Below, piece by piece: positions 10,961 to 37,335 of a stretch of 39,295 nucleotides of DNA. The DNA comes from a virus. Position 1 is the first letter of the stretch, and each line of letters begins with the position of its first letter. The stretch spans positions 1-39,295 of IMG/VR virus record IMGVR_UViG_3300045125_000021; one strand, written 5' to 3'. Below the pieces are notes generated by a model. It made no database searches. It had not been told where the DNA came from and saw only the letters and a list, made by a program, of their open reading frames with translations. The position numbers and the translations under genes are program-made.

Positions 10961-11228
10961 AAGAGTCCAAGGCAATGATGAAGAAGGAGGTCGGCTTTAT
11001 GAAGAAGGCTGGCGCCCCCCAGTTCGATGATCAAACATGAGGAAGTCCGAAATGAAGGGCATGAAGAAGATGGCTACTGGTGGCATCACCAAGGCCAAGA
11101 TGGGTACTGTTAAGACCGCTGCTCCTAGCCGCGACGGTGTGGCCACCAAGGGCAAGACCAAGGGCACGATGGTCAAGATGGCCTGCAAGCAAGCCCGTCT
11201 GGGCATGAAGTACGGCGGAAAGTGCTGA
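10957..11228 (+). CDS. Small Lys/Met/Gly-rich basic protein with an MATGG motif
   Basis: About 90 residues. GTG 10957 starts VKESKAMMKKEVGFMKKAG; after a break near 11015 (GAPKSMIKH) the frame runs cleanly through MKGMKKMATGGITKAKMG, TVKTAAPSRDGVATKGKTKG and TMVKMACKQARLGMKYGGKC to TGA 11228. About a quarter of the residues are lysine, and methionine and glycine are frequent. The MATGG segment (11070-11084) is one of the [MYLF]-A-x-G-G motifs discussed in the findings, and DGVATKGKTKGTM is a second motif with weaker echoes in two neighbouring small proteins. I do not know a function. A highly basic small protein in a head-to-tail gene block could coat DNA or cement the head. Confidence 0.6.
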
Positions 11229-11229
11229 C

Positions 11230-11522
11230 ATGATGCCGAGCCGGGGGATGGGGGCTATCGCCCCTCCAAGATGCCCAAGAAGAAGGTCATCCGTCGCAAG
11301 GATGACCCGAATGACGTTGACATGTACGCCGAAGGCGGGACCACCAAGTCCAAGGTCAACGAAGCGGGCAACTACACCAAACCGGGCATGCGCAAATCGC
11401 TGTTTGAGTCCATCAAGGCTCAGGCAACGCAAGGCACGGCGGCAGGTCAGTGGAGCGCCCGCAAGGCACAGCTTCTGGCCAAGAAGTACAAGGCCAAAGG
11501 GCGGCGAGGTTATCGTGGCTGA
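11230..11522 (+). CDS. Small basic protein with a YAEGG motif
   Basis: About 96 residues. ATG 11230 lies one base after the previous stop: MMPSRGMGAIAP, then, after a one-base break near 11270, MPKKKVIRRKDDPNDVDMYA. It continues AEGGTTKSKVNEAGNYTKPG, MRKSLFESIKAQATQGTAAG and QWSARKAQLLAKKYKAKG, ending at TGA 11522. The block 'AGNYTKPGMRKxLFxxIKA...GTxAGQWSARKAQxLAKKYKxxGGGY' is a conserved small domain of unknown function in phages. YAEGG at 11325-11339 belongs to the repeated [MYLF]-A-x-G-G set. The basic helix-rich end suggests nucleic-acid or tail/head contact, which is inference. Confidence 0.65.
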
Positions 11523-11938
11523 GACAGAAACTCAAGAACGAACGCCGCTTCGGAAGAGAAAGAGGCCGAGAATCTTGGTCCTTTAACATCACTACGCCGA
11601 CCCGTTGGGCCGATTTTCGGGCAAGTTAGCCAACATGCTAACTGCGGGGATGTGGACGAGCAGGGCTACGGTACCGCTAGACACCCCGGGGCGGTTTATG
11701 CTGGGGATCAGTTAGCAACAAAATTTTTGACACAGAAGGCAAACACGTCCTTGAGGCGCTAACTGATCCTCGTGTACGGCAGCTCAGGGCGAGCAGCGGC
11801 GGCAGAACAGCAGCGCCGCGAGGATAAAGAGCCGCGCAAATATGCCAAAGGCGGCTCCCGTATCCTCTGCATCCAGAGCGTGCCGATGGTATGCACCAAC
11901 GTGGTAAAACCCGTTGGGCAGCAGATTCGGTGCGCTAA
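11515..11938 (+). CDS. Hypothetical protein with a YAKGG motif, frameshifted
   Basis: Not recognised. GTG 11515 overlaps the end of the previous gene. Readable pieces in different frames are PLGRFSGKLANMLTAGM, EQGYGTA near 11660, FDTEGKHVLEALTDPRVRQL (about 11730-11780), EQQRREDKEPRKYAKGGS (11803-11858), then RADGMHQRGKTRWAADSV before TAA 11938. The intact product would be about 140 residues: a helical N-terminal half, a charged linker and a short basic end. YAKGG (11841-11855) again fits the [MYLF]-A-x-G-G pattern, and ADG-x3-RGKTR resembles the DGVATKGKTKG segment of the 10957 gene. At least six breaks in 424 bases make the exact limits weak. Confidence 0.45.
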
Positions 11939-12153
11939 GCCTCAGCAGCAAACGCTTGAAGGATCTTGCGAACCGGGCAGAAGTGGAGGACCAAGTGGTA
12001 AACCGTCTAGTAAAACTGGTGAGCGATACCTTCCAGAGGCCTTGATCAAGAGTCTTTCCTCCAAGAGTACGCCGCCCAACCCGAGCAAAACGAGCAGGCA
12101 AAGCCTCCGGCAAGCAGTTCGTAGCCCAACCTGGTAGCCATATAGCCAAGTAG
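11939..12153 (+). CDS. Small basic protein, KTGERYLPEA type
   Basis: A short gene of about 70 residues without a clear start codon, presumably lost to a base error near 11940-11970. The readable core is KTGERYLPEALIKSLSS, then in another frame EYAA, RAKRAGKASGKQFVAQPG and SHIAK before TAG 12153. 'TGExYLxxxxIxxLxxxEYAAxxRAKRxGxASGKQFVxQP' is a small conserved domain of unknown function found among phage structural genes. It is basic and helix-rich, like its neighbours. It ends 16 bases before the connector gene. The coding call rests on this conserved pattern; the left limit is arbitrary. Confidence 0.45.
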
Positions 12154-12169
12154 ATCCGCAGAGATTCAG

Positions 12170-13125
12170 ATGACTACATCAGGCGTATCCAGTTTTGACC
12201 TCGATCCTCACGAGATCGTCGAGGAGGCGTTTGAACGTGCGGGTGCGGAACTCCGAACGGGCTACGACCTGCGCACCGCTCGCCGTAGCCTTAACTTGCT
12301 GTTTGCTGATTGGGGTAATCGCGGCGTCAACATGTGGACGTTTGAGCAGCGCGTTATCACCCTGGCTACGGGACAACCGACATACGCGCTACCGGACGAC
12401 ACGGTAGACCTGCTGGATCATGTGATCCGCACTGGCGCCCAACGTCCCCGAACAACCAAGCCGACCTGACCATCACCCGGATCAGCGTCAGCACCTACGC
12501 CACCATCCCCAACAAGCTGATCACAGGGCCGTCCGATTCAGGTCTACATCCAGCGCTTGACGGCGCAGGAGAACTTGATGAGCATCACAGGTGGCAGCGC
12601 CTGGGGCAAACAGCACGACCACGTCGATTCCCGTATCGTCGGTCAACAACATCCCGAATGCGGGCTTCATCCGCATCGGCACCGAACTGATCTTCTACAA
12701 CGAGTACCAGCCTGCGGCTGACGGCAACCCTGCTTACCTGTTGAACTGCTGCCGTGGCCAGGACGGGACGACCGCTGCAAGCCACGCGGCAAGTGCGCCG
12801 ATCTACCTGTCGCAGAAGAACAGCATCACGGTCTGGCCAACGCCTGATCCTGGTCAGACGTATCAGTTCGTCTACTGGCGCATGCGCCGCATGCAGGACG
12901 CCGGTGGTGGCGTCAAGACGATGGATGTGCCGTTCCGTTTCCTGCCAGCCTTGTGGTCCGGTCTGGCTTACTACATCGCCCTGAAGATTCCTGATGGGCT
13001 GCAGCGCTTGGACGTGCTGAAGCAGCAGTACGACGAGGCGTGGCATGATCGCCGCAGGCGAAGATCAAGAGAAGGCGGCGGTGCGGTTTGTGCCCCGGCA
13101 GATGTTCATCGGGAGCGGTACCTAA
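12170..13125 (+). CDS. Head-tail connector or tail tubular A-like protein
   Basis: About 318 residues. ATG 12170 starts MTTSGVSSFDLDPHEIVEEA, then FERAGAELRTGYDLRTARRS and LNLLFADWGNRGVNMWTFEQ, the helical N-terminal part typical of connector or tubular proteins placed below the portal. A central beta module (about 12595-12820) contains SIPVSSVNNIPNAGFIRIG and ELIFYNEYQPA, with a CCRGQDGTTAA segment. The C-terminal part, VWPTPDPGQTYQFVYWRMRR then DVPFRFLPALWSGLAYYIA, returns to the helical fold. It ends RFVPRQMFIGSGT at TAA 13125, with the next ATG immediately following. Breaks occur near 12440, 12530, 12600 and 13050. Likely a ring linking portal to tail; which ring exactly is not certain because a second adaptor candidate follows at 13955. 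Confidence 0.7.
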
Positions 13126-13554
13126 ATGGGTAACCGGTTCTCATCCGGCAAGAACGCGATTGCGCAGTGTGATCGCTGCGACTTTCGGTTCAAGCTACAC
13201 CAGCTTCGCCGGGAGGTTATCAAGACCAAGAACTATGAACTCTTGGTCTGCCGCATTTGTTGGGACCCAGACCAACCGCAGTTGCAGTTGGGCATGTACC
13301 CGGTGGACGACCCACAGGGCGTGCGCAACCCAAGGCCGGATCGAAGCTACACGCAGTCGGGCAACACAGGACTTCAAGTCGTCGATACAACGGCGACCAC
13401 GCAAGACGCGGTGGGCTTCCCTAGTGAAGGCAGCCGGGACTTCCAGTGGGGCTGGAATCCGGTTGGTGGTTCTCGCGGCCCTGACGCAGGTTTGACGCCA
13501 AATAACTTGGTGTTGACCATTCAAGTTGGTACAGTCACGGTTGTGACGGCATAG
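13126..13554 (+). CDS. Zinc-ribbon conserved phage protein
   Basis: A clean open reading frame of 142 residues, ATG directly after the previous stop. The N-terminal third has two cysteine pairs, CDRC (about residues 18-21) and CRIC (43-46), spaced like a zinc ribbon, in a basic context (FRFKLHQLRREVIKTKNYEL). The middle is proline- and asparagine-rich (YPVDDPQGVRNPRPDRSY), and the C-terminal part is beta-prone with Val/Thr repeats (VLTIQVGTVTVVTA). Zinc-ribbon proteins of this length recur next to the connector gene in related phages. A role in tail assembly or in DNA contact is possible; the sequence does not decide. It is one of few genes here without a frame break. Confidence 0.7.
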   Translation: MGNRFSSGKNAIAQCDRCDFRFKLHQLRREVIKTKNYELLVCRICWDPDQPQLQLGMYPVDDPQGVRNPRPDRSYTQSGNTGLQVVDTTATTQDAVGFPSEGSRDFQWGWNPVGGSRGPDAGLTPNNLVLTIQVGTVTVVTA

Positions 13555-13563
13555 GAGCAGAAA

Positions 13564-13749
13564 ATGGCAGGCGTTAAAGAAATGCTGAAGCAAGCACATG
13601 GCCAAGGGCGCAGGCAGCGCATCCTGCATGCCGATGTGAAGAAAATGCGTGCGGGTGGCAAGACCAACAGCGACATGCTGAAGATGGGTCGCAATCTGGC
13701 CAAGGTTGCCAACCAAAAGTCGCCTGGTCGCAAGCAGAAGGGGGTCTGA
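13564..13749 (+). CDS. Small basic protein, KKMRAGGK type
   Basis: 61 residues, intact. ATG 13564 is preceded by AGGAGCAG. The sequence is almost entirely helical and basic: MAGVKEMLKQAHGQGRRQRI, then LHADVKKMRAGGKTNSDMLK and GRNLAKVANQKSPGRKQKG. About a third of the residues are Lys, Arg or His. MRAGG (13645-13659) is a near match to the [MYLF]-A-x-G-G motif, with the Ala one place later. I know of no function. Together with the neighbouring 66-residue gene it forms a tight pair (one base apart) between the zinc-ribbon protein and the adaptor. Confidence 0.7.
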   Translation: MAGVKEMLKQAHGQGRRQRILHADVKKMRAGGKTNSDMLKMGRNLAKVANQKSPGRKQKGV

Positions 13750-13750
13750 C

Positions 13751-13951
13751 ATGGCAACCTACAAGACTCCCAAGACTGTCGCAACGCCTGTTGTTGGCGC
13801 TGACGACATCAAGAAGACACTGCGCGACACCAACATGTCTGTGGCCAACATGCACTCCAACGAGTACAAGGGCACGAAGACTGACGGTATCAAGATTCGC
13901 GGCACTGGCTGCGCCACTAAAGGCGTGATGGCTCGTGGCCCGATGGCCTAA
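13751..13951 (+). CDS. Small conserved basic protein, MATYKTPK type
   Basis: 66 residues, intact; ATG 13751 lies one base after the previous stop. It reads MATYKTPKTVATPVVGADDI, KKTLRDTNMSVANMHSNEYK, GTKTDGIKIRGTGCATKGVM, ARGPMA. The C-terminal TDGIKIRG-TGCATKGVMARG resembles the DGVATKGKTKGTM segment of the protein at 10957 and, more weakly, ADG-x3-RGKTR at 11905: a shared D-G-x-x-x-(K/R)-G pattern followed by Thr and further basic residues. No function known to me. The lack of a hydrophobic core and the many Lys, Thr and Gly residues suggest a flexible or partner-folded virion protein. Confidence 0.7.
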   Translation: MATYKTPKTVATPVVGADDIKKTLRDTNMSVANMHSNEYKGTKTDGIKIRGTGCATKGVMARGPMA

Positions 13952-13954
13952 GAA

Positions 13955-14658
13955 ATGAACTACACGCAACTCAGCAACGCCATTCAGGCGTACACCGAAA
14001 ACCCAAGCAGCGACTTTGTCGCTCAGATACCTGTTTTCGTGCAACAGGCTGAGCAGCGTATTTACAACTCGGTTCAGTTCCCTTCGCTTCGCAAAAACGT
14101 AACCGGGGTTACATCTACGAACAACAAATACCTGTCTTGCCCTGGTGATTTCTTGGCTGTGTATTCATTGGCGGTCATTGACCCCACGGGCAGCTACGAG
14201 TACTTGTTAAACAAGGATGTGAACTTCATTCGGCAGGCATACCCGCATCCGACGCAAGATACGGGCTTGCCACGCTACTACGCACTGTTTGGCCCGACCA
14301 CGACAAACGATCCGTCGCCCGTTATTACGGACGAGTTGTCTTTATTCTTGGCCCAACGCCGGATGCAAGCTACAACGTTGAGTTGCACTATTACTACTAC
14401 CCAGAGTCCATCACCGTTGCGGCTGATGGCCAGACGTGGCTGGGGGATAACTTCGACACTGTGCTGTTGTATGGGTCGCTTGTTGAGGCTTACACCTACA
14501 TGAAAGGTGAGCCAGACATGCTTGCGCTGTACAACCAGAAGTACATGGAAGCATTGCAACTGGCCAAACGCTTGGGCGATGGTCTGGAGCGCAGCGACGC
14601 ATACCGCAGTGGTCAGGCGCGCATCCAACCATTGCCGCAGAATAGGGGTGTTCAGTGA
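13955..14658 (+). CDS. Head-tail adaptor protein
   Basis: About 234 residues, one frame break near 14345. ATG 13955 starts MNYTQLSNAIQAYTENPSSD, then FVAQIPVFVQQAEQRIYNSV and FPSLRKNVTGVTSTNNKYL. The N-terminal helices with 'F...IP.FV..AE.RI' are the hallmark of adaptor proteins that dock under the portal of short-tailed phages such as the SU10/phiEco32 group. A beta-rich middle (YLSCPGDFLAVYSLAVIDP, ELHYYYYPESITV) is followed by C-terminal helices (LYGSLVEAYTYMKGEPDM, LALYNQKYMEALQLAKRLGD). It ends at TGA 14658 sharing one base with the next ATG. Together with the 12170 protein it would form the two rings linking portal to nozzle. Confidence 0.75.
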
Positions 14659-15094
14659 TGCCCATCGACCAGGGTGCAACGAATGCAGTTCAAGAGTTGG
14701 CTTAGCGTCTAGCCAGTTCAACTTCAGTACTGACACGTTCAAGATGGCGCTCTATACGGGCGGAGCTACGCTTGGACCCACCACGGCGGCATATACCACG
14801 ACCAATGAGGTTCCTGCCGGTGCGGGTTACACCACGGGCGGAAACGTGCTGACGGTTACTACCGCGCCTACTACAGGGCCCAACCTCAACAACACGGTCA
14901 TGTATCTGTCGTTTGCCAACGCGGTTTGGAACCCGGCGTCGTTTACCTGCCGTGGGGCACTAATTTATAAGGTTGGTGGTGGGAATCCGACCGTCTGCGT
15001 GTTGGACTTCGGCGCCGACAAGACAGCCGTCAATTCATTCGAGGTGCAGTTCCCGGTAGCGGACAGCACGAACGCCATCATTCGCATCATCTAA
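14658..15094 (+). CDS. Conserved virion-type protein of about 145 residues
   Basis: ATG 14658 overlaps the previous stop (TGATG). MPIDQGATNAVQ is followed by a break near 14690 and then a clean frame: SSQFNFSTDTFKMALYTGGA, TLGPTTAAYTTTNEVPAGAG, YTTGGNVLTVTTAPTTGPNL and so on to ANGAIIRII-like strands ending at TAA 15094. 'TDTFKMALYTGxATLxxxTxxYTTTNEVxGxGYTxGG' is a widespread small phage domain, beta-rich, usually beside tail genes. It may be a small tail or fibre-base protein. No catalytic residues are visible. Function inferred from location only. Confidence 0.65.
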
Positions 15095-15103
15095 GGAGCG
15101 ATC

Positions 15104-15682
15104 ATGTTGAACGAACATTCCCAATCTTCGGACGCCGTTTCGGCGGGCCTCGTTGCCAAGACTGGCTTCTCCGACAGCGCCCGTGGCGGCGGTGTCTTTC
15201 ACGTCCAGTGCTTCGACAAGGACGGCAACCTGAAGTGGGAAGACCAGATGCACAACCTCGTGGTCAACGAGGGACTGCAAAACATGAACACCCAGTATTT
15301 CAAGGGCGCCACCTACCCGGCTGCTTTCTATCTGGGCTTGGTGACTGGCCCCGGCTCGGGCACTGCTTACGCTGCCGGTGACACACTGGCTTCGCACATT
15401 GGTTGGACCGAGTTCACCAACTACTCCGGCTCGCGCAAGGCTGTGACCTTTGGTACTGCCACTACGGCTGATCCTTCGGTAATCAGCAACTCGGCCTCTC
15501 CTTCCCAGTTCAGTATTTCTGGTGGCGGCGGTACGGTGGCCGGTGCGTTCTTGTGCACGGTGGCTTCTGGCACTTCTGGCATCCTGTTCTCTGAAGCTGA
15601 CTTCCAGTCCCCTGGTGACCGGATTGTGGTGGCAGGTGACACGCTGAACGTGACCTACACTTTCAGCCTCGATGCGGCTTGA
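15104..15682 (+). CDS. Tail-region structural protein, 192 residues, intact
   Basis: A clean gene starting at ATG 15104 after AAGGAGCGATC. The N-terminal part reads SGRGGGVFHV-like: ARGGGVFHVQCFDKDGNLKW, EDQMHNLVVNEGLQNMNTQY; the 'F.V.C.D.DG.LKW...HNLVVNEGLxxxN' pattern marks a common small phage tail protein family. The rest is beta-rich with many Gly, Ser and Thr residues and ends DTLNVTYTFSLDAA. It lies between the adaptor block and the fibres, so it may be part of the tail tip or fibre base. No frame break is needed. Confidence is high that it is a gene, moderate for the class. Confidence 0.7.
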   Translation: MLNEHSQSSDAVSAGLVAKTGFSDSARGGGVFHVQCFDKDGNLKWEDQMHNLVVNEGLQNMNTQYFKGATYPAAFYLGLVTGPGSGTAYAAGDTLASHIGWTEFTNYSGSRKAVTFGTATTADPSVISNSASPSQFSISGGGGTVAGAFLCTVASGTSGILFSEADFQSPGDRIVVAGDTLNVTYTFSLDAA

Positions 15683-15694
15683 GGCTGAGGCTTT

Positions 15695-16547
15695 GTGTTT
15701 GGAACCACCGCCTTTGCGGAAACGCCTTTTGCTGCGGCGGGGGGCGGTACTGTCTGGGATTCGGCAGTTGCTGAGTCTTCAACAGCGTCAGACACAGCGG
15801 CGGCTTTTGCCGACTTTCTGACAAGCCTGAGCGAGCAGGCCACGGGAGCGGACCAAACTGCGGTAGCTCCCTCCTCTTTCTCCGCAGTCTTCACAGACAC
15901 GGCTACGCTTTCGGATGCGGCGGCTGTCTTGATGGACTTTGCCGTCGATGTGGCGGAGTCTTCCACCATTTCGGACACAGCGTCGGTCGCCGTTGACTTT
16001 GCGGTGTCGGTAACAGAGGCGGCCTCGGCGTCGGAGACTATTGCCGCCCAGGTGGACTTCAGCGTGAATATCGCAGAGTCTGTGCAGGCATCGGACACTG
16101 TGCAGGCACTGGCGGATTTCTTTGCAGCAGTTGCTGAGGCCGCTACCGGCAGCGACGCTTTGACCACGAGCATCACCTACAACGTTTTCATGGATGAAGG
16201 CGCTTCGGCGTCCGACGCAGTATCTGCGCAGGCCGCATTTGCGGTTGTGGTGTCTGAACTTGCATCAGCGTCTGATACGGCGACGGTGGCCCCGTCGATA
16301 TTCAACGCTCCTGTGTTTGAAGGCGCTACAGCGGCTGATTCTGTGTTGGCTTTGGCAACGTTCTTTGCTATCGTTACTGACGGCGCAGTGGCGGTTGATG
16401 CGAGTTACTGGAAGACTCCTGTGGGAGATCATCAACGACGCACAGACCGCTAACTGGGGCACGATTGCCAACGCACAGACTGCCGGATGGACGACAATCA
16501 ACGACGCTCAAGGCGGCTCTTGGGATGTCGTGAAAACCCAATCGTGA
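15695..16547 (+). CDS. Repeat protein with ten 20-residue repeats and a Trp-rich end
   Basis: Start GTG 15695 (VFGTTAFAETPFAAAGGGT), with GAGGCTGAGG upstream. From residue about 31 to 232 it consists of ten tandem repeats of 20-21 residues with consensus A-S-D-T-x-x-A-x-x-D-F-x-V-x-V-x-E-x-A-T. Two alternating strands per repeat would suit a fibrous beta-solenoid or trimeric shaft. Near 16420 the frame shifts and the end has three 11-residue repeats (INDAQTANWGT, IANAQTAGWTT, INDAQGGSWDV). It ends at TGA 16547, 10 bases before the S74 fibre gene. The repeats are acidic and Ala-rich and contain almost no Lys or Cys. Probably a shaft or connector of the host-binding apparatus; this is inference from composition and neighbours. 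Confidence 0.65.
15785..16391 (+). repeat. Ten degenerate 60-base tandem coding repeats
   Basis: Protein-level repeats with period 20 residues (two copies of 21) beginning at ASDT, GADQ, LSDA, ISDT, ASET, ASDT, GSDA, ASDA, ASDT and AADS in order. Each carries 'D-F/x-F' in the middle and 'E-x-A-T/S' or a close variant at the end. DNA copies have drifted, which suggests old duplication under protein-level constraint rather than recent slippage. Confidence 0.8.
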
Positions 16548-16557
16548 GATACCAAAA

Positions 16558-19500
16558 ATGGCACTTGTCGTAAAAGATCGGGTCAAGGAAATAACCACAA
16601 CCACCGGCACGTCTAACCTGACGCTGGGTGGTGCGGTCTATGGTTTCCAGTCGTTTTCCATCATCGGCAATGGCAACACGACCTACTATGGCATCTATGA
16701 CTCGGCCACGGGTGACTGGGAAGTCGGTATTGGTACGTACTCGACCACCGGCCCGACGCTAAGCCGCGACACGGTTCTGGAGTCAAGCAACTCCGGCAGC
16801 AAGGTAGTGTTTGCGGCAGGCAAGTAAGGATGTTTTTGTCACCTATCCTGCTGAGCGTTCGGTCTATCTCGATGCAGCCGGTTCGGCTGTCACGGTCCTT
16901 GACATCGGCACAGCAGGGATTGGTACGGCCAACATCACGTCGGCCAACATCACAGCAGGCACGATCTCCACAACCCCACGTTAAGCAACGACATTGCCAA
17001 CAAGTCCTACGTGGACGGCATAGCTGCACAGGGCATTTCGTATCACACACCGGTCAAGTATGAGGTGCCCAACACCACGGGTAACCTGAACGCCATCTAC
17101 AGCAATGGTGCGTCGGGGGTTGGCGCTACGCTGACCAACAATGGCACGCTTGCTGCGTTTGCCCCGGACGGCCCTACCGCTTCGCCCGGTGACCGCATTC
17201 TGGTCTACAACCAGACCAACGCCTATGAGAACGGCGTGTACCGTCACCACGGTGGGCAGCGGGTCGGTTGCTTGGGTGCTCACTCGTGCGGCGGACGCTA
17301 ACACCTATGGCGTCAAGGACCCCAACGCACTGGGTGCGGGAGATGCGTTCTACGTCACATCTGGCAATACCGGTGCGGGCGAGACCTACGTCTGCAACAC
17401 GGCAGGCACGATTACCTTCGGCACGACAGCCATCACGTTCGCGCAGATTTCTTCGGCGCAGGTGTGCAGCGCCGGTACTGGGCTGACGCTGAGCAATCTG
17501 CAATTCAGCATCACGCCGGTTGGAACCGCAGGTACGTACGGCTCTTCTTCTCAGGTGCCGGTGTTCACGACCAACGCGTCGGGTCAGGTCACGAGCGTTA
17601 CCAACACGGGCATCGCCATCAGTGCAGGTGCAGTCTCTGGATTGGCACCTTCTGCCACGACGGATACGACCAACGCGTCGAACATCACTTCTGGCACGTT
17701 GCCTGTTGCGCGGCTGTCTGGCTCCTACACCGGCATCACTGGGGTCGGTACGCTGACGGCGGGTACGTGGAATGCAAGCACCATCGGCGCTACGTTTGGT
17801 GGTACGGGCATCACGTCCTACACCATCGGTGACATTCTGTATGCGGACACGGGCACGACACTGGCTCGTCTGGCGGATGTGGCCACGGGCAACGCCCTGA
17901 TCTCTGGTGGTGTGGGCACGGCTCCTTCTTGGGGCAAGATCGGCCTTCAAACCCATGTCAGCGGCACGCTCCAGGTGGCCAACGGCGGTACAGGCGCCAC
18001 TACCCTGACTGGCTACGTGTACGGCAACGGCACGGGTGCGTTCACTGCATCGACCTCGATCCCCAACTCTGCCACCACGGCAACAAGTGCAAACACGGCT
18101 TCGGCCATCGTGGCGCGTGACGCCTCGGGTAACTTCAGCGCAGGCACCATCACTGCTTCGCTGAGTGGCAACGCGAGCACTGCGACCTCTGCGACTTCGG
18201 CAACCACGGCGACCAACTTGGCCGGTGGTGTGGCCGGTGCGATTCCTTACCAGTCTGCCAGTGGCACGACGCTTTTTCTCCGCTGCGGGCACCTCTGGGC
18301 AGTATCTCCAGTCCAACGGCACGTCTGCACCGTCTTGGTCTACGCTGCCCGCAGTTAATGATGGCACGCTGACCATGAACGTGTCGGGCACTGGGCCTGT
18401 CGGGCTCTGCGACCTTCACGGCCAACCAGTCTGGCAACTCGACATTCACGGTCACGTCCAACGCCACATCCGCCAACACGGCGTCAACCATTGTTGCGCG
18501 GGACGCATCGGGTAATTTCAACGCCGGGACGATCACCGCCACGCTCAGCGGTACGGCTACTCAGGTCAGCAACAACCTGACGCTTGCCACCTCTGGCACC
18601 GGCCTGTCCGGTTCGGCCACGTTCAACGGCGCGTCTGCTCAGACCTTCACGGTTACGTCCAACGCCACATCGGCCAACACGGCGTCCACCATCGTGGCTC
18701 GGGATGCTTCTGGCAACTTCAGTGCAGGGACGATAACGGCTTCGCTGAGTGGTAATGCCACGTCTGCTACTACTGCCACCACGGCTACTACTGCCACGAC
18801 AGCAAACGCATTAAATTCTGCAAATAACTATTCGGTCAACCAACTTAATAACAATGCTCGGTATAGCTACAACGACAACGACAGAAACGCCAACAGCGCG
18901 ACTTATTACCCCAACGCTTCCGCAAGAGCGTTCCGTTTTGCTTTTGTTAATGCTTCTTCTGTTGGCACCGGCGGGGAATTATGCAGGGTTGATGCAGTTT
19001 GATCCGTGGGATGGGACTACGTCCAGTACTGGTGATGCATCTTATCAGATGGCCTGGGGTAGCACTGCTGCAAACAGTGGCGGCGTTCCTCAGTTAAGGA
19101 TTCGTAAGGGTATTGATACTACTTGGAACGCTTGGTTAGACATTCTTACTTCGTCCAACTACAACTCCTACGCCCCCACCCTGACCGGCGGCGGTGCTTC
19201 GGGTACTTGGTCAATCAATATCGCCGGGATCCGCAGGTTCGGCAGGCTCTGCTTGACTACGCCAACCTGACCAACAAGACTGGCGGTACGGGCACGTACA
19301 CCACCAGTGGGGATTACTGTGCCCCCATTTTCTACGACAGCAACAACACCGCTTATTACGTAGACCCGGCGAGCAACAGTGTATTAAACACCATAAACAG
19401 CAGGTCAATTACCTACCTGATGTATTACCAGGTTTTACCCGATGCCAGCCGATGGACACCATGCAACGGGTTCACGTACTCGGTTAACGCGCCCTATACC

Positions 19501-20692: not shown

Positions 20693-20701
20693 GGAAACAT
20701 C

Positions 20702-21052: not shown

Positions 21053-21065
21053 TAGGGAGCAACGC

Positions 21066-24366: not shown

Positions 24367-24891
24367 ATGGAGCACAATCTTTATATATGTATTGAAAACG
24401 GTTTGCCAGTGAACCATCCGGCGTTTACAGAAAATCTTATAGAGGCTTTTGGTAAAGTGCCAGATAATTGGGAACCGTTTATTCGTATCTTAAACCCAAC
24501 GCTGTTGGACAAAAGGATTGTCTTAACGCAGCCTGAGCCGTCTTATGAAAAAATAGATGGTGTTTGGCAAGATGTTTGGCACACCCGCCTTAAAACAGCG
24601 GAAGAAATTGCAGCCGAAAAAGAACAAAAACTTAACTCCGTTCGTCAGCTTTGGGCAAAAAATCCATACGCGCATAACTTTACTGCGTGGATTTTGAATG
24701 AAGAAAAATTTGCGTATGAGCCTCCGCTTCCTCGGCCCACCGACGGCAAGTTCTATCGTTGGCACGGCCCAAGCAACAACTGGCGCGAAGCCGAACCGTT
24801 CCCTCAAGACGGCAAACGCTATACGTTTGATTTCGACAATTGGGTGAACGTGGAGGTTCCTAATGTGCCAATCCAACAGCCCGGTGACTGA
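24367..24891 (+). CDS. Fibre-linked hypothetical protein, AT-rich
   Basis: 174 residues, intact, ATG 24367. It reads MEHNLYICIENGLPVNHPAF, TENLIEAFGKVPDNWEPFIR, with a helical middle (KTAEEIAAEKEQKLNSVRQL) and an end containing FAYEPPLPRPTDGKFYRWHG then NWVNVEVPNV. 'YExPxPxPxDGKxYxWxxxxxxW' is typical of small proteins next to phage fibres, several of which help assemble or tip the fibre. The gene is clearly AT-richer than its surroundings, with many AAA, TTT and TTA codons, matching the adhesin just upstream and suggesting that the two arrived together. It overlaps the oxygenase gene by 29 bases. Tail fibre chaperone is a reasonable but unproved guess. Confidence 0.65.
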   Translation: MEHNLYICIENGLPVNHPAFTENLIEAFGKVPDNWEPFIRILNPTLLDKRIVLTQPEPSYEKIDGVWQDVWHTRLKTAEEIAAEKEQKLNSVRQLWAKNPYAHNFTAWILNEEKFAYEPPLPRPTDGKFYRWHGPSNNWREAEPFPQDGKRYTFDFDNWVNVEVPNVPIQQPGD

Positions 24892-25546
24892 AGCAGTGCA
24901 AGCGACGGAACTGCAAGTGGCGCCGCACTTTGCGTGCCCGGTTTACGTCATCGACCGCCCCGATTTTCTGGGGGCGGTCAGTGCCGTTTCTGAAGAGTCG
25001 CTGAAGGAGCAGCATGCGCAACATGCGGTCAACGACATCTACCCGCTGATGATGAGCGGGAACTTCGTCAATGACCCCCGCGTGCGCGAGTTTGCTGAGT
25101 TTGTGGCCTCGACCGCATGGAACATCCTCGACAGCCAGGGGTATGCCATGCAGCATTTCCACACGCTGTTTGAGTCGATGTGGACCCAAGAGCACCACAA
25201 GCAGTCGTCGATGGAGCAGCACGTCCACGGTGGCGGCGCTCAGATCGTGGGCTTCTACTTCCTCGATGTGCCTGAAGGCTCCTCCCGTGTTGTGTTCCAC
25301 GACCCCCGCCCCGGCAAGGTGATGAGCGAGTTGCCCCAGAAGGACGTGACGCAGGCTACACCGGCAAGCCAGATGATCAACTTTGAGGCCAAGCCCGGTC
25401 GGTTGATTTTCTCAAACGCTTGGCTGCCGCACTCCTTCACCCGGCATGCCGGAGACACGCCGCTGCGCTTCGTGCACTTCAATCTCGTGGTGATGCCTGC
25501 GCAGCAGAACCACACCTGTCAAGCGCCTGCTGCCGAGGTTGTGTGA
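24863..25546 (+). CDS. 2-oxoglutarate/Fe(II)-dependent oxygenase
   Basis: 227 residues, intact. ATG 24863 is inside the previous gene. The fold is the double-stranded beta helix of 2OG-Fe(II) oxygenases: HVHGGGAQIVGFYFLDVPEG (His120 and His122), SSRVVFHDPRPGK, GRLIFSNAWLPHSFTRH (His190) and RFVHFNLVVMP (Arg202). In this family (type 2OG-FeII_Oxy_5) two His plus an acid or nearby His hold the iron and the late Arg binds the 2OG carboxylate. Here the second metal ligand position appears as H-x-H rather than H-x-D, as in many phage members. Such enzymes hydroxylate proteins, nucleobases or small molecules; the substrate is unknown. Position among fibre and assembly genes hints at a virion-protein target, but metabolic or DNA targets remain possible. 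Confidence 0.8.
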   Translation: MCQSNSPVTEAVQATELQVAPHFACPVYVIDRPDFLGAVSAVSEESLKEQHAQHAVNDIYPLMMSGNFVNDPRVREFAEFVASTAWNILDSQGYAMQHFHTLFESMWTQEHHKQSSMEQHVHGGGAQIVGFYFLDVPEGSSRVVFHDPRPGKVMSELPQKDVTQATPASQMINFEAKPGRLIFSNAWLPHSFTRHAGDTPLRFVHFNLVVMPAQQNHTCQAPAAEVV

Positions 25547-27790: not shown

Positions 27791-27829
27791 CAGGAAAATA
27801 CCGCTATGCCTCAAGCCTTCTCCGCCCGC

Positions 27830-28439
27830 TTACGTTCCCAGTACGCTTTTTCTGGTGGCGGATAATTTTGCCCGGTACTCTGGCGTGTCCCACAACGCCC
27901 GTTTGGCTTGGAAATCGGGCGAACTCATGGTTGCTTTGAGCCGTTCCTTGCGTTGGGCTAGTGCGGCGGGATCGGACATCTTTTCGCGTCTGCGGTCTTG
28001 GGCAGCGCGGATGCCTGCTATGCGCTTCTCCCTGATCACGGGGTCTGTGTTTAGTATCTTGTGGTACTCGCGCATAGGGTTGTCTGGACGCAGCAAGCGT
28101 TGGCGCTTGGCTTCAAGGACCTCTTTTCTTGGTCTTGCCACACCTTCGCCACCGTCTGTGAAGTTTGCAAGCGTGCCCCCATCGGAAATGCGTTTGAAGT
28201 GCGCAATCAGTGACCGCTCCAAGTTGCAGGCGTCTTCCCACGACACGCGCACAAAGCGTTGTACTTTTACATTCTCAGGCCCATACTTCTGCACCATGCG
28301 GAAGCACAAAGAGTTTCGGTCTTTCTTTGACACAGGCTGGCTTCCATCGCCCGGAAGTTTTGCCGATGCCAACGTAAAACGGCACCCAATCAGGACTGAA
28401 CCAAATGTACACGTACGCTGACGTATCGAGTGTTTTCAT
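27830..28439 (-). CDS. GIY-YIG homing endonuclease (free-standing type)
   Basis: Opposite strand, start ATG 28439. The N-terminus has the GIY-YIG signature: YVYI at residues 9-12 and FYVGIG at 21-26. One frame break near 28375 follows. The nuclease domain continues LCFRMVQKYGPENVKVQRFV, SWEDACNLERSLIAHFKRIS and LANFTDGGEGVARP, with Glu in the ERSLI segment as candidate metal ligand and Asn at LANFTDGG. The C-terminal part contains repeated short DNA-binding elements (DPVIREKRIAGIRAAQDRRR, SDPAALAQRKERLKATMSSP, DTPEYRAKLSATRKS), NUMOD3-like. It ends at TAA 27832. It is inserted between endolysin and nozzle genes, head-to-head with the latter (14 bases apart). Such elements cut alleles lacking them and spread between phages. 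Confidence 0.85.
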
Positions 28440-28453
28440 GCGGAGAGCATAAC

Positions 28454-31653: not shown

Positions 31654-31683
31654 AATGGTTTCAACCTTTTTCTTGGAGGCCGT

Positions 31684-34053
31684 ATGAGCCTTGCTGTACT
31701 AGCCGACCACATGGCCTCTAAGGGGCGCAACGGCGACACGATGCTGGGTGCACATGACCCCAGAAGCAGTTCACGGGTTGCAGGCACTGGCGCTCGCCAG
31801 CGGCGGATCATTAACGATCAATCCCGATACTGGACTCTACGAAGCCAGTTGGCTCAAGAAGCTTCTGCCTGCGATTGCTGGTATGGCGCCAACCTACCGC
31901 TCAGGTGTCGGTACTGCAATTGGCTCGGCTTTGGGCATGAGCGGCGCAGTTGGAACGGGTCTTCTGGTTGGCGGCGTTACGGGGTTGGCTACCGGCAGTC
32001 TCAAGCAAGGCATCATGGCTGGCCTTGGCGCTTATGGCGGCGCTTCGATGATGGGAGGCTGGAATCCGCAGGAATGTCTGCTGCGCAACAAGCGGCTATG
32101 TCTCCAGAGGCTGTTGCGCAGATTACTGGGCCTGAGCTTGTTGGGGAACGCGACTGCGGAAGCCGTTGCGCGCAATCAGCTTGCTGAACAAGCCACAAAA
32201 GATTATTTGGCTGGAGGTGCTATGGACCGCTTTACGGGCGGTATCAGCGCGCTTGGTACAGAAGCAGGCCGTACGGCAGCACTCAGGGTGTTGGCGGCAC
32301 TTCGGGTTTGATGCGCGCAGGCATGATGGCTGCGACACCAGCAATGGTAGAGCCCCCAGAACAGATATGCCGTCGCCCAATCAGTACACGGGCATGGTGC
32401 GACCATTACGTTCGACCCGTATGGCCAGACCATCCGCAAGAGCCGTACAAAGCCGCATCCGGGGGAATCGTGGCCCTAGCCGCTGGTGGAACGCCGGATA
32501 TGAGCGGACTTAGTGCCGCACAGCGCAAGTACGCTGAAGACCTGATGGGGGCGCCAAGCTGAGGAACGCCCGAAGGATTCTTGGGTACGTTAAAGGACTG
32601 AACGACTACCAATGCTTGCATCGCTTGCGGCTGTGCAAGGCAAGCAGGGATGGAATCAGCCCAGTGGTTTTGACACGATGAACACGCTGTCTCAAATGTA
32701 CGAGACACCCATCGTGGAACTATGGCCAAAATAGTACCGCGCAACCCGCACAAGGCGGGCTTGCGGCGCTGTCCGCTGCGCAATCTACGACGCTGACGCC
32801 GGGAACAGTTTAAGCAACAGGATTTATCAAGGTGGCGCAGACGACGTGTTGGCCACTAAGCGCGGTGTTGACTACATCCGGCAAGCGGGGCTATCCCCGC
32901 AGGAATCGCTTGACTTGTGGAATCAGTCGTTGGGCACCAAGTTTGGAATGGCGGACTACGAGCGCGTGATGAAGCAATTCCCCGCCGCTCAACAACCCGC
33001 CCGCACCCGCACCTTCCGGGACGCCGATTGCAGGGCCGGTAGTTCCCGGTACTGTTGGCGAAGACAAGACGTACGGTGGTACCGACGTGCTTGATCGCGT
33101 AACGCCGCCTACTCCAGGCACTTCTGGAAAGGTTACGCAAGAAAACTTGACAATGAAGCAGGTGCGGGACGAGTATGAGAAGGGTGGTGGCAGCTTGGGT
33201 ATGCCCGTCATTCCATTTACTCCACTCCGCTGACCGGTGGAAGCAAAGCAGCATACGACTACTTAGATGGGCCGAGGCGCTTATCCTACGGTTCCCTACA
33301 CCCAGACGGGGCAGTCAGCGTCCGTGCGCAGAAGGCGGTGTTGGGCGTGCCGGTCTGACAAGACGCGCAGCAAGTTAATTTTCGATCCAGCTACGCGCAC
33401 AGTACGTACCTAACCCTGACTATAAAGCGCCGACGTTCCCGAACTGCCTGCATCAATGCCAGCGGTCAGCCCATCGTGCGCGACTACGCAGGCAACCGCA
33501 CTACACGGGGCTTGCCGGTCTTGCTTCTGCCGCCAACCCGGATGTAAAGTCGGCGTTTGAGAAGCAAGTCAGTGGAGATGAGCGCTGATGACTACGTGCG
33601 TTACCACTGAATACTTTTGGAAAAACGAAGGCCGTAAAGGCTATACCGACACCGTTGACGTAGCGCCTGTGGGCGGCGGCTCTCAAGAGCCAAACGCAGA
33701 CATCGTGCCCTTCGCTCGTGGTGGGCTTTCAGATATAGCTGTTGCAGGCTCCGGTGAGTGGGCGGTTCAACCTTGGTGGCTACTCAGATGGCGGGCGTTT
33801 GCTGCGCGGCCCGGGTGATGGCGTCTCTGACAGCATCCCTGCCACGATTGGCAACCGTCAACCCGCACGCCTTGCCGATGGTGAGTTTGTGGTTCCGGCG
33901 AGGATTGTGAGTGAAATAGGGAATGGGTCCACTGAGGCTGGCGCACGCAAGCTCTACGCAATGATGGATCGTGTGCAGCGTGCACGCGCTAAGACAACTG
34001 GTAAGGGCAAGGTGGCCAAGAACACCCGCGCCGACAAGTACCTCCCCGCATAA
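31684..34053 (+). CDS. Large virion protein with LAAGG/FARGG motifs, frameshifted
   Basis: About 790 residues. ATG 31684 follows TTGGAGGCCGT. Opening: MSLAVLADHMASKGRNGDTM, then MTPEAVHGLQALALASGGSL. A glycine/alanine-rich membrane-like segment follows (GVGTAIGSALGMSGAVGTGL, LATGSLKQGIMAGLGAYGG). Then come GGIVALAAGGTPDMSGLSAA near 32461 and RGVDYIRQAGLSPQESLDLW. A Pro/Thr-rich linker leads to FARGGLSDIAV (33711) and the end block GPGDGVSDSIPATIGNRQPA, RLADGEFVVPARIVSEIGNG, TEAGARKLYAMMDRVQRARA, finishing KYLPA at TAA 34053. The last block is a strongly conserved module of large phage virion proteins. The hydrophobic centre suits an ejected, membrane-inserting protein. Dense breaks between 32060 and 33780 make the middle unreliable. 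Confidence 0.68.
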
Positions 34054-34061
34054 GACGGATC

Positions 34062-35729
34062 ATGGCCGAAGCTAATCAAGTCGTTCAATATCAGACTGGC
34101 TTTTGCACGCGCAGCTTGCTCCTTATGCGGAGACGCTGCTTGGGCAGGCTCCAGGCACTGACGGATATCAGCCAGAATCCGTACATGCAGTATCAGGGGA
34201 GCGCTTTGCGCAGTTCACCCCTATGCAGCAACAGGCGCCTGAGCAGGCACAGAAGATGCAAGCCGCGCAGTTGACGAGATGCCACATCTCCTTGCGGGCT
34301 TAGCGGGTCTCCGTGCGCTTGGTTATGGGTATCAGCCGGGGCAGTTTACAACCAGTTTGTTGCGCCGCAGCAGTTTCAGCCATCTTCGTTCACCGCTCCG
34401 GGTGTCTTCGCGCGATCTGACCACATATCAGATGGGTCCGTGCCGAGCGCGTCTCAGCAACGGGCGTCTCGACTCCGCAGATGACAGGCGGCGCAGACTG
34501 GCTATGCCCGGGTCTTCAGGCATATCAGATGGGTCCTGCCGAGCGTGTTCGCACGCAGTCTTTCGCTCGCCCCGGCGCCGCCCAAGCCTACATGTTCCGT
34601 ACATGCAGGACGTGGTGGATATTCAGCAAAGAGAAGCTCAGCGTCAGGCAGATATTGCCGGTACTCAGCGTGCGGGCCGTACACCCGCGCAGGCGCTTTC
34701 GGTGGCGCACGGCAATCATTGAGAATGCTGAGGCTGCACGCAACCTTCGATGCAAATGAAGGGACATCCGAGCTACGGGTCTTCAGGCGGCGTATCAGCA
34801 GGCGCAGCAGCAGTTCAACGCTGAGCAGGCGGCACGCTTCAAGCCAGCAGCAAGCCAATCAACAGGCGGGACTTCACGGTTGGTGGGTCAGAACCTTCAA
34901 GCGGCTCTGGGTGTACAACAACTTGGTACGCAGACTGGGCTGCAGACGGCACTGGCCAACCTGAACGCACAGCAACAAGCTAACGTACAGAACTAAGCCG
35001 CTGCGTTGCAGGCACAAGGTCTGAATGCACAACGGGCGATGCTGGCTTGGCTCTCGCCAACCAGCAAGCCGGTTTGACTGTGAGGGCAACAGAATCTAGC
35101 CGCCGCGTTGGGCACGCAACAATTTGGTGCGCAAAGATACAGGCAGCGCTTGCCAATCAACAGCGCAATGCCCAGGCGCAGCCAGGTTAGCTGAGCAGTC
35201 TAAGCAGTTTGGCTACGGTCAGCAGTTGCAGGCCTGCAGGTATGGGCGCTCAGTATGGGCAAGCCGCCTCAACAGTTGGGCGAGCAGTCAGCACAGTACG
35301 GTGCGGGCTTGGGACTACAAGGACTGCAGAGCGGCGATGCAGGGCGCGACAACTGGAGCAACCTTGGCCAGACGCAGTTCAGTCAAAACTTGGGCTGAAC
35401 CAGTTGCTCTCCGGTATGGCGGTCAGCAACAGCAGCAGATGCAGAACATATTGGGTTCTCAATACCAAGACTTCCTGAACTACCAAAACTACCCATACAA
35501 GCAATTGGGCTTTATGTCCGACATGCTGCGCGGTGCGCCCATATCGCAGACAGGTTCGCGCGATGTATCAGCAGCCTCCCTCTACGGTATCTCAACTGGC
35601 AGGTCTGGGTACCGCAGCGTTTTGGTGCGAGCAAGCTGTTTGGTATGAGGGACGGCAGAAGGTCGAAGATGTGCCACCTAAAAGCCTGCCGGTCTGGCTG
35701 ATCTGGCAATCTACAACATGGGTGCTTGA
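34062..35729 (+). CDS. Gln/Ala-rich ejection-type protein, frameshifted
   Basis: About 555 residues. ATG 34062 (MAEANQVVQYQTG). Pieces in order: PYAETLLGQA, MQYQGSALR and FAQFTPMQQQA, LAGLAGLRALGYGYQPGQF, MQDVVDIQQREAQRQADIAG, AFGGARQS, AIIENAEAARNL, QQFNAEQAARLQASQQ, LQTALANLNAQQQANVQN, RLAEQSKQFGYGQQLQA, AGMGAQYGQAA, LGLNQLLSGMAV, LGSQYQDFLNYQNYPYKQLG, FMSDMLRGAPISQT, PPSTVSQLAGLGTAAF, and the end LADLAIYNMGA at TGA 35729. Extreme Gln and Ala content in long helices is the mark of internal head proteins ejected with the DNA, as in P22 and T7. One internal TAA at 34995-34997 falls where a Gln codon is expected. At least fifteen breaks. Lies two bases before the next gene. Confidence 0.65.
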
Positions 35730-35731
35730 AC

Positions 35732-37335
35732 ATGATCAACGTCAACAGATCACAACCCAACTGCGCATGCTGCCTGATCAGGCGTTGCAGCGCGTGGCCA
35801 TGATGTACAAGCAAGACCCGTACATCCTGCCGTTGGTTGTGTCGGAGGACATGGCCCGCAAGAAGATGCGCGCTGCTGCTCAAGCGCAGATGGCCGCAGC
35901 CTCAGCCTAAAGTTGCCGATCAAGCCATCATGTCGATGGCGCCGCAACCGCAAGCAGCCCCAGTATTGCCGGACTGCAAGCGCCAAACATAGGACGGAAC
36001 GGCCAGACGGCGGGATCGCGGGCTACGCAGATGGTGGGGATTTGCCGACAGCTTTATGGAGCCTGTGGTGCAGAATGGCCGATGGCGGTGTGGCGCGGTA
36101 TCAAGGCAAGACCGAAAGCGCTGTTCGTTTGAGTGACCCCGACGATCTGCTTAGCACTTACTACTCCCAGATGACCCCGCAAGCCGGAGAAACAACCGCA
36201 GAGCGAAAAGCGCGCCGCGCAAAAGAACGGGAGTTGGAAGAGGCGGCGGAGGCGGAGCAGCGCCCTCTTGCGCGTTTGTTGCGTGCAGTTGGTTCGGGCG
36301 AAAGCAAGCTGTACAAAGCGCTGTACCCCACTCAAGAAACCGTAATGAGTCGCCAGCAGGGGCGTGAAGTTGCCCCTATTGAGGCTGCTATCGTGATCCG
36401 CGCAGAGCAGCGCTTAGGGGATTTTCCAGGGCTCCGACTGGTGCTGGCTCCCAACACTGAGCAAGCTCCGCCTCCCAGAAAAGAACAACGCGGGGCGGCG
36501 GATGTAGTGCGTCAAGCAAGCTCCAGTGCCAGCACCAGCGGCTCCCGCCGTGGTAGCGCCCCCGTTTACACTGCGCCCACACCCAGGCTACGGCAACTGG
36601 TAAGAGACTGGCATGGCGGCGCCCAAGAGGTACAGGAGTCTGCCTACGCTGAACTGCGCAAGCTGTACGAGCCTGAAGAGAAGGAGCTTGCACAGCGTCG
36701 TGGACAACGTGGTGGCGAGGCGTTGCTTCGTGCCGGTTTGGCCATGATGAGCGGCACTTCCCGTATGCAGCCGTGAATATCGGCAAGGGGGCTACTGAGG
36801 GCCTGACTGCCCTATCAAGAAGCGCAGCGGTACGTGATCAGGCGGCACGTGCACTACGTCAAGCCCAAATCACTATGCGCATGGCTGAGCGCCAGAGCAA
36901 ATTGGCAACCGCCGCGATGCTGTTACGTTGTTCAGTCAGGCTCAGCAGCAACAGCAGGCAGCAGCGTCATCGGCGCAGCAAGCGCAATGATCAAACAGAC
37001 CGGCGAGTATCGGCAAGGCAGTCGGGCAATCATGCAACAGAACGCCGATACCAGCCCGGTTGGTCAACGCCAAGATCAAGGCTCTCGACGCGCCAAGGCA
37101 GCAACAAGAGCGGATGATGGCAGAGTACGGCAAGATTCAAAAGCAGGTCATGGCTGATCTGTCCAAAGATGTTGCCTACACGACTGAAACTGATCCTGTT
37201 AAAAAGGAGCAGATTTTCCGTTCACACATCAATATGGCCATCGCCAACAGCCCGTTCTTGGCCAATACGCTCTTCAGTTCCGCTCCTACCGGCAAAGTTC
37301 GTGACCTGCTCGGCAAGGATGACGAAGAAGATTGA
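35732..37335 (+). CDS. Virion or ejection protein with YADGG/MADGG motifs
   Basis: About 535 residues. ATG 35732 (MINVN), then ITTQLRMLPDQALQRVAMMY, KQDPYILPLVVSEDMARKKM, RAAAQAQMAAASA. It continues VADQAIMSMAPQPQAAPVLP, then GGIAGYADGGDLP (36009-36047) and MADGGVARYQG (36075-36107). A charged helical part includes TAERKARRAKERELEEAAEA. Further on, YAELRKLYEPEEKELAQRRG and EALLRAGLAMMSGTS precede RQAQITMRMAERQSKL, and the end reads QERMMAEYGKIQKQVMADLS, FRSHINMAIANSPFLANTLF, with an acidic stop region at TGA 37335. Two [MYLF]-A-x-G-G motifs lie close together after a flexible linker. Helix-rich, mixed charge, between two other ejection-type proteins: probably an internal virion protein. It overlaps the next start by 17 bases. 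Confidence 0.65.

Follow-up and report, generated by a model that had tools for sequence, protein, structure and literature searches.

A portable C-terminal peptide headed by [MYF]-[AK]-x-G-G on unrelated small proteins encoded beside the capsid gene of aquatic phages, a candidate tag for head cargo

Encapsulins load unrelated cargo proteins into an HK97-type shell by means of a short conserved C-terminal peptide, which is preceded by a flexible glycine-rich stretch. In phage T4 a short N-terminal capsid-targeting sequence marks different internal proteins for the head and is removed by the prohead protease, and maturation sites of the adenovirus type carry a hydrophobic residue before a double glycine. 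The present work concerns a 39,295-nucleotide virus record of IMG/VR (IMGVR_UViG_3300045125_000021; this whole stretch is called the window), in which an original prediction had noticed a recurring pentapeptide, [MYLF]-A-x-G-G, in small basic proteins and in large ejection-type proteins, and had proposed three possible meanings for it: cleavage by a maturation protease, sorting or head entry, or docking through a shared peptide. Comparison with related phages revealed that this pentapeptide belongs to a selected and portable C-terminal peptide, found in a large group of aquatic phages on many unrelated, basic and nearly cysteine-free proteins encoded in a single slot among the head genes. As judged from sequence, the tag on these small proteins beside the capsid gene most likely marks them for loading into the particle.

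The seven exact sites of the original prediction (MATGG, YAEGG, YAKGG, LAAGG, FARGG, YADGG and MADGG), as well as the near match MRAGG, were all recovered in open frames (Table 1). The late genes of the window are full of frameshifts, so that several of the genes hosting the motif are broken. In the six frames of the window [MYLF]A.GG occurred 11 times against a shuffle mean of 6.0 (p 0.029), and on the plus strand 9 times against 3.8 (p 0.014; 1000 shuffles in each case), a modest excess that is unconvincing alone. Two of the nine plus-strand matches had not been listed before, LASGG at 31793 and YADGG at 17749; the open frame holding the latter shares its stretch with the fibre frame 17141-18358, though read in a different phase, and this match may be due to chance. 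The statement that the fibre proteins lack the motif does not hold once Ile is allowed at the first position, as the prediction's own check pattern allows, since IANGG is then found twice in a fibre frame. Most sites with homologues covering them kept their position in these homologues (Table 1); no homologue in reach was found for the FARGG frame, and YAKGG could not be compared because its frame is broken.

The enrichment over composition-matched shuffles, modest in the window, was large in related aquatic phages. A scan of IMG/VR with the YAEGG protein (11271-11522; phrog_17747, function unknown) identified at least 597 of 600 candidates as relatives, from which 80 loci were retained. Their 1482 open frames contained 476 matches to [MYF][AK].GG (46.5 in shuffles) and 343 to the predicted pattern extended with I and V (78.9 in shuffles), whereas reversed and permuted control patterns stayed at expectation (71 vs 79.9 and 66 vs 77.7). 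At least one [MYFL][AK]xGG was present in 81 of the 230 protein clusters of these loci. That glycine-rich proteins yield the pattern unaided would agree with the weak excess in the window (p 0.014-0.029); however, control patterns with the same letters in other orders do not rise above expectation. Shuffles and permuted patterns together exclude composition as the cause in the relatives, and we regard chance as extremely improbable overall.

A listing of C-termini showed the pentapeptide to be the first part of a bipartite C-terminal tag of about 28 residues, in which [MYF]-[AK]-x-G-G describes it better. The tag consists of [MYF][AK]xGG, a gap usually of 4-8 residues (mostly 4 or 7, and often ending in SAS-x), the core R-A-D-G-(C/I)-A-x-(R/K)-G-K-T-(R/K)-G-x-x, and the stop. 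The 80 loci, which had not been chosen by the tag, hold 99 copies in 97 proteins belonging to 46 clusters and 56 loci; the tag ends exactly five residues past the core in 81 copies, and in 86 the position -3 of the upstream GG is occupied by Met, Tyr or Phe. The GG itself is almost invariant (at least 90% of 42 rows). It should be considered that [MYF][AK]xGG was sharpened after inspection of the data and that the regular expression used for the tag fixes several of its residues by construction; genes were called with our own codon-score script rather than a standard program. The claim that the motif hosts share no other similarity was mistaken as regards the small proteins, which have the RADG...GKTRG part of the tag and cysteine endings in common. 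In the window, a full tag begins with YAKGG at 11841, in a gene whose reading frame is now broken, and the second match of the tag profile to the window (11879-11914) lies directly behind YAKGG.

This profile, A1, was built from 42 tags, and in IMG/VR it gave at least 446 confirmed relatives among 600 candidate stretches. Pooling yielded a larger set of 156 loci (76 of them fetched by the tag; L001, L082-L090 and the duplicate contigs L099 and L158 left out), with 268 tagged proteins at 133 loci and in 146 of 382 clusters; the tag is C-terminal in 234 of the 268. As this set was partly fetched by the tag, the share of 146/382 is not a population estimate. Proteins were clustered with the motif masked in both sets and with the tag also masked in the larger one, where tag likeness consequently did not drive the clustering; one large cluster (523 proteins) lumps several small families. 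When one random protein was taken per cluster of the larger set, [MYF][AK].GG was found 179 times, distributed over 147 of 382 proteins (mean of shuffles 13.3, maximum 24), and [MYFL]A.GG 82 times (13.5 expected, maximum 24). The motif was in excess even in clusters without any tagged member, with 33 matches against 7.8 in shuffles, or against 15.7 (maximum 26) when GG was held fixed and only neighbours within 15 residues were mixed. In addition, the N-terminal part of some tagged proteins contains a basic stretch that closes with [FY]xxGG, and a hydrophobic-xxGG occurs within the first 40 residues of 52 of the 268. Among 29 long records, 26 matched the tag profile at E <=0.01, each of them one to five times. 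For 16 of the 29 the choice had rested on their ejection protein, a sampling independent of the tag, and 13 of these 16 are among the matching records. A scan of the genome_contigs collection gave 19 pattern matches that were reduced to five loci, of which L086, L088 and L089 hold tagged proteins; with our gene caller none was obtained in L087 and L090.

The tagged genes occupy a defined place. In five mapped genomes the late genes run in the order terminase, portal, GroES-type, scaffold-type, capsid, decoration, a slot of small genes, adaptor, tail and fibre, tail tube, and an ejection run; part of these names are inferred from PHROG and Pfam matches and from annotated relatives, the capsid of relatives matching phrog_371 (major head protein). 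Where a locus shows both borders, the tagged genes are flanked by the capsid gene on one side and the head-tail adaptor gene on the other in 120 of 121 cases, and up to five stand in a row. A capsid homologue was found no more than 6 kb upstream of the tagged genes in 35 of the 36 loci with room for it, and the adaptor lies at most 6 kb downstream in 53 of 54. Each of the 76 loci fetched by the tag has one or more of five phage-type markers, none of which is a tagged protein (the YAEGG protein in 72, the adaptor in 71), and the count remained 76/76 when one tag-like marker was dropped. The window follows the same order, from the capsid fragment (8843-9295) through a slot holding the motifs at 11070, 11325 and 11841 to the adaptor fragment at 12170. 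Across the five mapped genomes [MYF][AK]xGG was concentrated in two gene sets, with 31 matches in the 53 slot genes (1.6 in shuffles) and 29 in the 28 ejection-run genes (3.3), and was near chance in 140 other late genes (5 vs 3.6) and in 149 genes of the early strand (1 vs 1.5).

Several observations place the tag under selection at the protein level. Pairs of proteins from the same cluster (125 pairs, 25 clusters) are on average 0.78 identical in the tag and 0.46 in the body. Tags are also more alike within one genome than between genomes (0.782 vs 0.734, a difference reached by none of 500 label shuffles), as would be expected if each phage had one docking partner. A DNA element in place of a peptide was ruled out, because the codons used for identical tag residues agree in only 0.47 of cases within one genome (0.42 between genomes). 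The portability of the tag is illustrated by a conserved small slot protein of DUF6321 type (a name that rests on one Pfam match among 41 proteins), for which a set of 52 proteins was picked by three sequence patterns. This protein ends at its WNC in 33 of the 52 and has a variant of the tag appended in 17, for instance KEGGSVRGGGCEIRGKTKGKMV and ADGGYVKSADGIAQRGKTKGKMC; the tag is therefore portable, as one conserved protein occurs with and without it.

The cysteines of these proteins have a peculiar distribution. The bodies of the 234 C-terminally tagged proteins contain 10 Cys in 28,371 residues, and the tags themselves have Cys at DG-C-A only in 141, Ile at that position together with a tail Cys in 36, both in 1 and none in 56; counted per cluster these classes are 77, 22, 1 and 35 (Fisher p 5e-9, with clusters that are not independent events). 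Slot proteins end in Cys in 13 of 53 cases, compared with 3 among the 349 remaining proteins of these genomes, and the MATGG-type proteins of relatives, a set picked by sequence pattern, do so in 50 of 57. Many small slot proteins that otherwise lack Cys have a single one at or near the C-terminus. One might propose that the lone Cys of the tag links the proteins covalently to each other or to the shell, by a disulfide or a modification. The use of one Cys per tag, almost never two, on nearly Cys-free bodies and the excess of Cys endings in the slot would suit such thiol anchoring, but 56 of the 234 tags have no Cys, the statistics suffer from the dependence between clusters, and the capsid, scaffold-type and YAEGG-family proteins show no conserved Cys that could receive it. 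The portal, adaptor, GroES-type (an inferred name) and tail-tube proteins do have conserved Cys, and this point is not decisive; we consider thiol anchoring as the function of the tag to be quite improbable.

In the tagged bodies Lys makes up 11.0% and Arg 7.9% of the residues, which is high compared with all proteins of the loci (6.0 and 4.4%), and the share of ILVFWY is low (0.160 vs 0.258, the latter value also counting Cys). Such a composition, and the presence of other small basic proteins in the same slot, would be in agreement with DNA-condensing tails, protamine- or nucleoid-like, whose basic GKTRG or Lys-rich ends bind the packaged DNA and need no sorting partner. DNA binding by the basic tail is possible; a plain DNA-binding tail, however, would have no need to conserve D-G-(C/I)-A, a fixed spacing from the C-terminus and a lone Cys, and we judge it unlikely that this is all that the motif does.

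The proposal of a maturation-protease site, in which a phage or host peptidase would cut after GG and free the tag or a leader during head maturation, found no support in the peptidase searches. In 17 related records neither Peptidase_S78 (prohead protease) nor Peptidase_C39 (double-glycine peptidase, PF03412) was found, with controls positive in 4/14 and 8/14, respectively; Mu-like_Pro was likewise found in 0/17, but its control also failed to match. When 41 proteins from the late modules of three genomes were compared with Pfam, 16 families were matched, and none of them is a peptidase; adenain (PF00770) was not among these matches, and no search of whole genomes for PF00770, or for any peptidase family besides the three named, was made. 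Double-glycine cuts are known in other viruses, and the near invariance of GG in the tag would suit such a site. The homologues of the YAEGG protein in pelagiphages and in a Methylophilales phage lack the N-terminal extension up to GG; those of the pelagiphages start about where a cut after GG would leave the protein, which would also suit such a site. Nevertheless, the absence of Peptidase_S78 and Peptidase_C39 in 17/17 records, together with about 20 conserved residues past GG, weakens this reading, and we hold it to be very unlikely, even if cutting by a host peptidase or by an enzyme of the adenain or T4 gp21-type family remains conceivable.

The motif in the large proteins of the ejection run calls for a separate treatment. 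With the ejection domain of the window (33742-34050), 80 loci were fetched from at least 587 relatives among 599 candidate stretches. In these loci [MYF][AK].GG occurs 342 times (60.2 in shuffles) and GGI[VA]x[MYFL]AxGG 41 times (0.0 in shuffles), with [LIV]xxGG and polar-xxGG at expectation; the excess of Tyr, Met and Phe is greatest at position -3 of GG (764 vs 372). The repeats often stand at a distance of 8 residues (68 cases) or of 5 (52 cases), where one shuffle gave a single case of each, and none of the 80 loci shows the RADG part of the tag in the fetched stretch. Both features would speak for two separate things, the tag being one system and the ejection-run xxGG repeats being convergent Gly-rich linkers or strands by the GPGDGxSDSIPA...GEFV domain; similar xxGG sequences are known before the GEFV domain in tape-measure proteins. 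This explanation, which is compatible with a sorting role of the tag, is to be set against the fact that the same residues are favoured at -3 and -2 of GG and that, in the five mapped genomes, the motif is concentrated in just these two gene sets. We consider that it has a little less than an even chance of being correct, and whether the ejection-run repeats do the same job as the tag stands close to evenly balanced. Look-alike repeats, such as GYKTGGRVGFKYGG, and a C-terminal NRGGMVKKRKK were seen in other marine phages (L082, L273).

A giant protein of the ejection run matched LPD38 above the cut-off in 11 of 17 records, with open frames of 1964-3273 residues; such frames stand at the end of the late module in G002, G008, G009, G017 and others. 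The late modules also matched ART-PolyVal (the ADP-ribosyltransferase of polyvalent proteins) and SLT domains. According to Iyer et al. (PMC5512222), LPD38 belongs to polyvalent proteins, a share of which is viewed as likely packaged in the capsid.

Taken together, these data lead us to favour, at what we take to be an even chance, the explanation that the motif is the head of a portable sorting and docking tag for head cargo, similar to the cargo peptides of encapsulins. A sorting, head-entry or docking role, as had been proposed, fits the C-terminal position, the portability, the single slot by the capsid gene and the unrelated bodies. According to this explanation, the tagged bodies would be largely disordered and the two Gly would act as a flexible elbow, and the aromatic residue or Met before GG and the RADG...GKTRG part after it would bind a common partner inside the procapsid, for which the inner face of the capsid, the scaffold or the portal are candidates. 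In this way the tagged proteins would become cargo of the head and be delivered along with the DNA. For the large ejection-run proteins, the repeated pentapeptide might represent a second use of the same docking surface. We are least sure of the cargo role, of the partner, and of the same job for the ejection-run copies. Combining all the parts, the head of this aquatic phage group would be an encapsulin-like compartment in which a generic C-terminal tag loads fast-changing injected proteins from the slot, a single Cys helps to hold them and the ejection-run proteins use the same docking surface; this full version is possible, although we find it rather doubtful.

Some findings weigh against the preferred explanation of a sorting and docking tag. 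The AlphaFold model of the YAEGG protein is poor (mean predicted local distance difference test, pLDDT, of 59), with the motif in a stretch below 50 (residues 15-33). Besides the two gene sets, 32 other genes of the same strand hold 3 motifs against 0.2 expected, an excess left unexplained, and only 12 of the 58 clusters with at least three members in the first 80 loci have [MYFL][AK]xGG in at least 30% of their members. Kinship between phages could account for part of the likeness of tags within one genome. In the appended tags of the DUF6321-type protein, the Cys of WNC takes the place of Met, Tyr or Phe in 17/17, and 13 of the 17 read GGGCE instead of ADG; the module is thus variable. The three long records without a match to the tag all come from the set chosen by the ejection protein. 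In that ejection set, Tyr, Met and Phe are also in excess at -4 (594 vs 384) and -1 (552 vs 379) of GG. Finally, phage SU10 has a late-gene order similar to that of this phage group, and its five ejection proteins, gp20-24, are described in PMC9509320 as present in the virion, with support from mass spectrometry, and lost on genome release. These five proteins contain no [MYF][AK]xGG, which implies that the motif is not a general ejection signal and belongs to this phage group.

The capsid protein has relatives in the Planktothrix/Synechococcus phages Pag-Yong1, Pra-JY27 and MinM2 (70% identity), whose three records are equal in length and are perhaps one phage. Further capsid relatives are the pelagiphages HTVC023P and HTVC027P, DSL-LC04, the roseophages CRP-901 and CRP-902, Alcaligenes phage QDWS535 and Caulobacter phages. 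In Pag-Yong1 a 308-residue protein (UMO75986.1), whose gene follows the capsid genes, ends in a diverged tag; MinM2 and Pra-JY27 have identical copies of it, and looser look-alikes occur in DSL-LC04 and HTVC023P. A tblastn search of 50,697 phage records with a typed 28-residue tag gave no match, nor did a second tag-like query; the first miss says little, because Pag-Yong1, MinM2 and Pra-JY27 do carry a diverged copy.

No credible Pfam or PHROGs family was found for the tagged proteins (the 110 longest of 146 representatives were scanned). Five PHROGs with one member each matched weakly (E 0.0006-0.007), including the head scaffolding protein phrog_206 at 0.0049, and one representative matched a Pfam DUF at E 0.004; the tag profile had no match in PDB up to E 1. 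The models of the YAEGG protein and of the ejection domain (mean pLDDT 53) were too poor for a fold search. In the titles and abstract openings of mainly open-access papers we found no description of the tag under tag peptides, shared virion C-terminal tags, double-glycine cuts with ejection proteins, polyvalent proteins, or C-terminal-Cys and small basic head proteins. Encapsulins and T4 already illustrate the principle of such a tag; neither this peptide nor its position or its gene slot appears in the sources searched.

Table 1. Motif sites, tag copies and bordering genes of the window
Feature	Coordinates	Strand	Evidence, or homologues covering the site that keep it
Major capsid protein fragment, upstream border of the slot of tagged genes	8843..9295	+	phrog_371, E 1e-4
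MATGG, opening an internal copy of the tag (small basic protein 11037-11228)	11070..11084	+	[MYFLIVW]xxGG in 110/178 homologues
Match of tag profile A1 in the MATGG protein	11076-11174	+	E 5.9e-5
SRDGVATKGKTKGTMV, second half of the MATGG tag copy, same frame as MATGG	11127..11174	+	Profile A1 match
GGKC, exact C-terminus of the protein 11037-11228, lone-cysteine ending	11214..11225	+	
YAEGG, end of the N-terminal extension of the phrog_17747 protein 11271-11522	11325..11339	+	144/145 homologues
C-terminal tag split over three frames	11841..11914	+	YAKGG 11841-11855, PVSSAS 11857-11874, RADGMHQRGKTR 11879-11914
Head-tail adaptor fragment (name inferred), downstream border of the slot	12170..12469	+	phrog_12985, E 1.5e-9; same PHROG in L262:15470-16393
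MRAGG in the small basic protein 13564-13749	13645..13659	+	[MYFLIVW]xxGG in 85/94 homologues
RGTGCATKGVMARGPMA, C-terminal peptide (tag B), core R-[AG]-x-G-[ACI]-A-x-[KR]-G	13898..13948	+	Similar endings in relatives
LASGG, ejection-run protein	31793..31807	+	Same context (e.g. QGLQALALAHGG) near residue 37 of several homologues
LAAGG within GGIVALAAGG, ejection run	32476..32490	+	4/4 homologues
FARGG, ejection run	33711..33725	+	No homologue found in frame
Conserved GPGDGVSDSIPA...DGEFVVPA domain, with LGGYSDGG before it	33742..34053	+	At least 587 relatives among 599 candidate stretches
YADGG in GGIAGYADGG	36024..36038	+	6/7 homologues
MADGG	36075..36089	+	9/9 homologues

Regarding other features of the window, matches to terminase, portal, capsid and adaptor (1569-4056 and elsewhere) cover only fragments of broken genes, so that sequencing errors are probably numerous in this record. 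Among the 41 late-module proteins, 2 matched SU10_adaptor, and these presumably include the adaptor named here. A second C-terminal peptide, tag B, stands on a different small protein and is conserved in relatives; judged by eye, it may be kin to the main tag. A search with the 66-residue protein that carries it gave no match. Small basic proteins of three kinds (KGGLNAKGRAS, AGNYTKPG and GERYLP types) are encoded at 10301-10513, 11271-11522 and 12018-12056, and two or three of these types lie near one another in HMO-2011, two pelagiphages and a Methylophilales phage (L082-L085). Short proteins of phiKZ-like jumbo phages resemble the N-terminal segment SKKQHNFMAAVANNP of the MATGG-type protein, with an identity of about 77% across 43 residues, a likeness seen in H61/H62 (phiKZ PHIKZ165.1) and L080. 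A putative 2OG-Fe(II) oxygenase (PF13759, E 8e-11) is encoded among the late genes at 24863-25546. Scans of the window with Rfam, at the gathering threshold, and for tRNAs gave nothing.

Compared with the systems described at the outset, the tag resembles adenovirus-type sites in having a hydrophobic residue before GG, but here this residue lies one position further out, a conserved stretch follows GG, and no peptidase was found among those searched. It differs from the substrates of double-glycine peptidases in that no C39-type peptidase was found in the phage genomes. With the T4 signal it would share a short sequence that marks different proteins for the head; in contrast to that signal it is C-terminal in most tagged proteins, and Peptidase_S78 was not found (the T4 gp21-type family was not searched). 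The giant ejection-run proteins with LPD38, and the ADP-ribosyltransferase domain of the late module, recall the polyvalent injected proteins of Iyer et al. (2017, PMC5512222); passages of that work describe domains, not a short C-terminal tag on small proteins, and the terms "glycine" and "short motif" do not occur in its main text.

The closest parallel is that with encapsulins. In both cases a short conserved C-terminal peptide is found on unrelated proteins, and the genes of these proteins lie near that of the shell, as the capsid homologue does in nearly all loci with room for it. The capsid of this phage group (phrog_371) presumably has the HK97 fold as well. The differences are that the shell is here a virus head that also holds DNA, that the peptide sequences are, to our knowledge, unrelated, and that binding to the shell would be a proposed feature in the phages. 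Even without a function, the tag is a selected portable protein module, present in 46 unrelated clusters of a set that was not chosen by it and absent from the libraries searched. If it does load cargo, the proteins that a phage brings into its host could be read from sequence, for a common and mostly uncultured group whose small late genes are unnamed. In that case the tag would represent a portable head-loading signal that laboratory strains could make use of and provide, beside encapsulins, a natural case of a capsid-type shell loaded via a C-terminal peptide.

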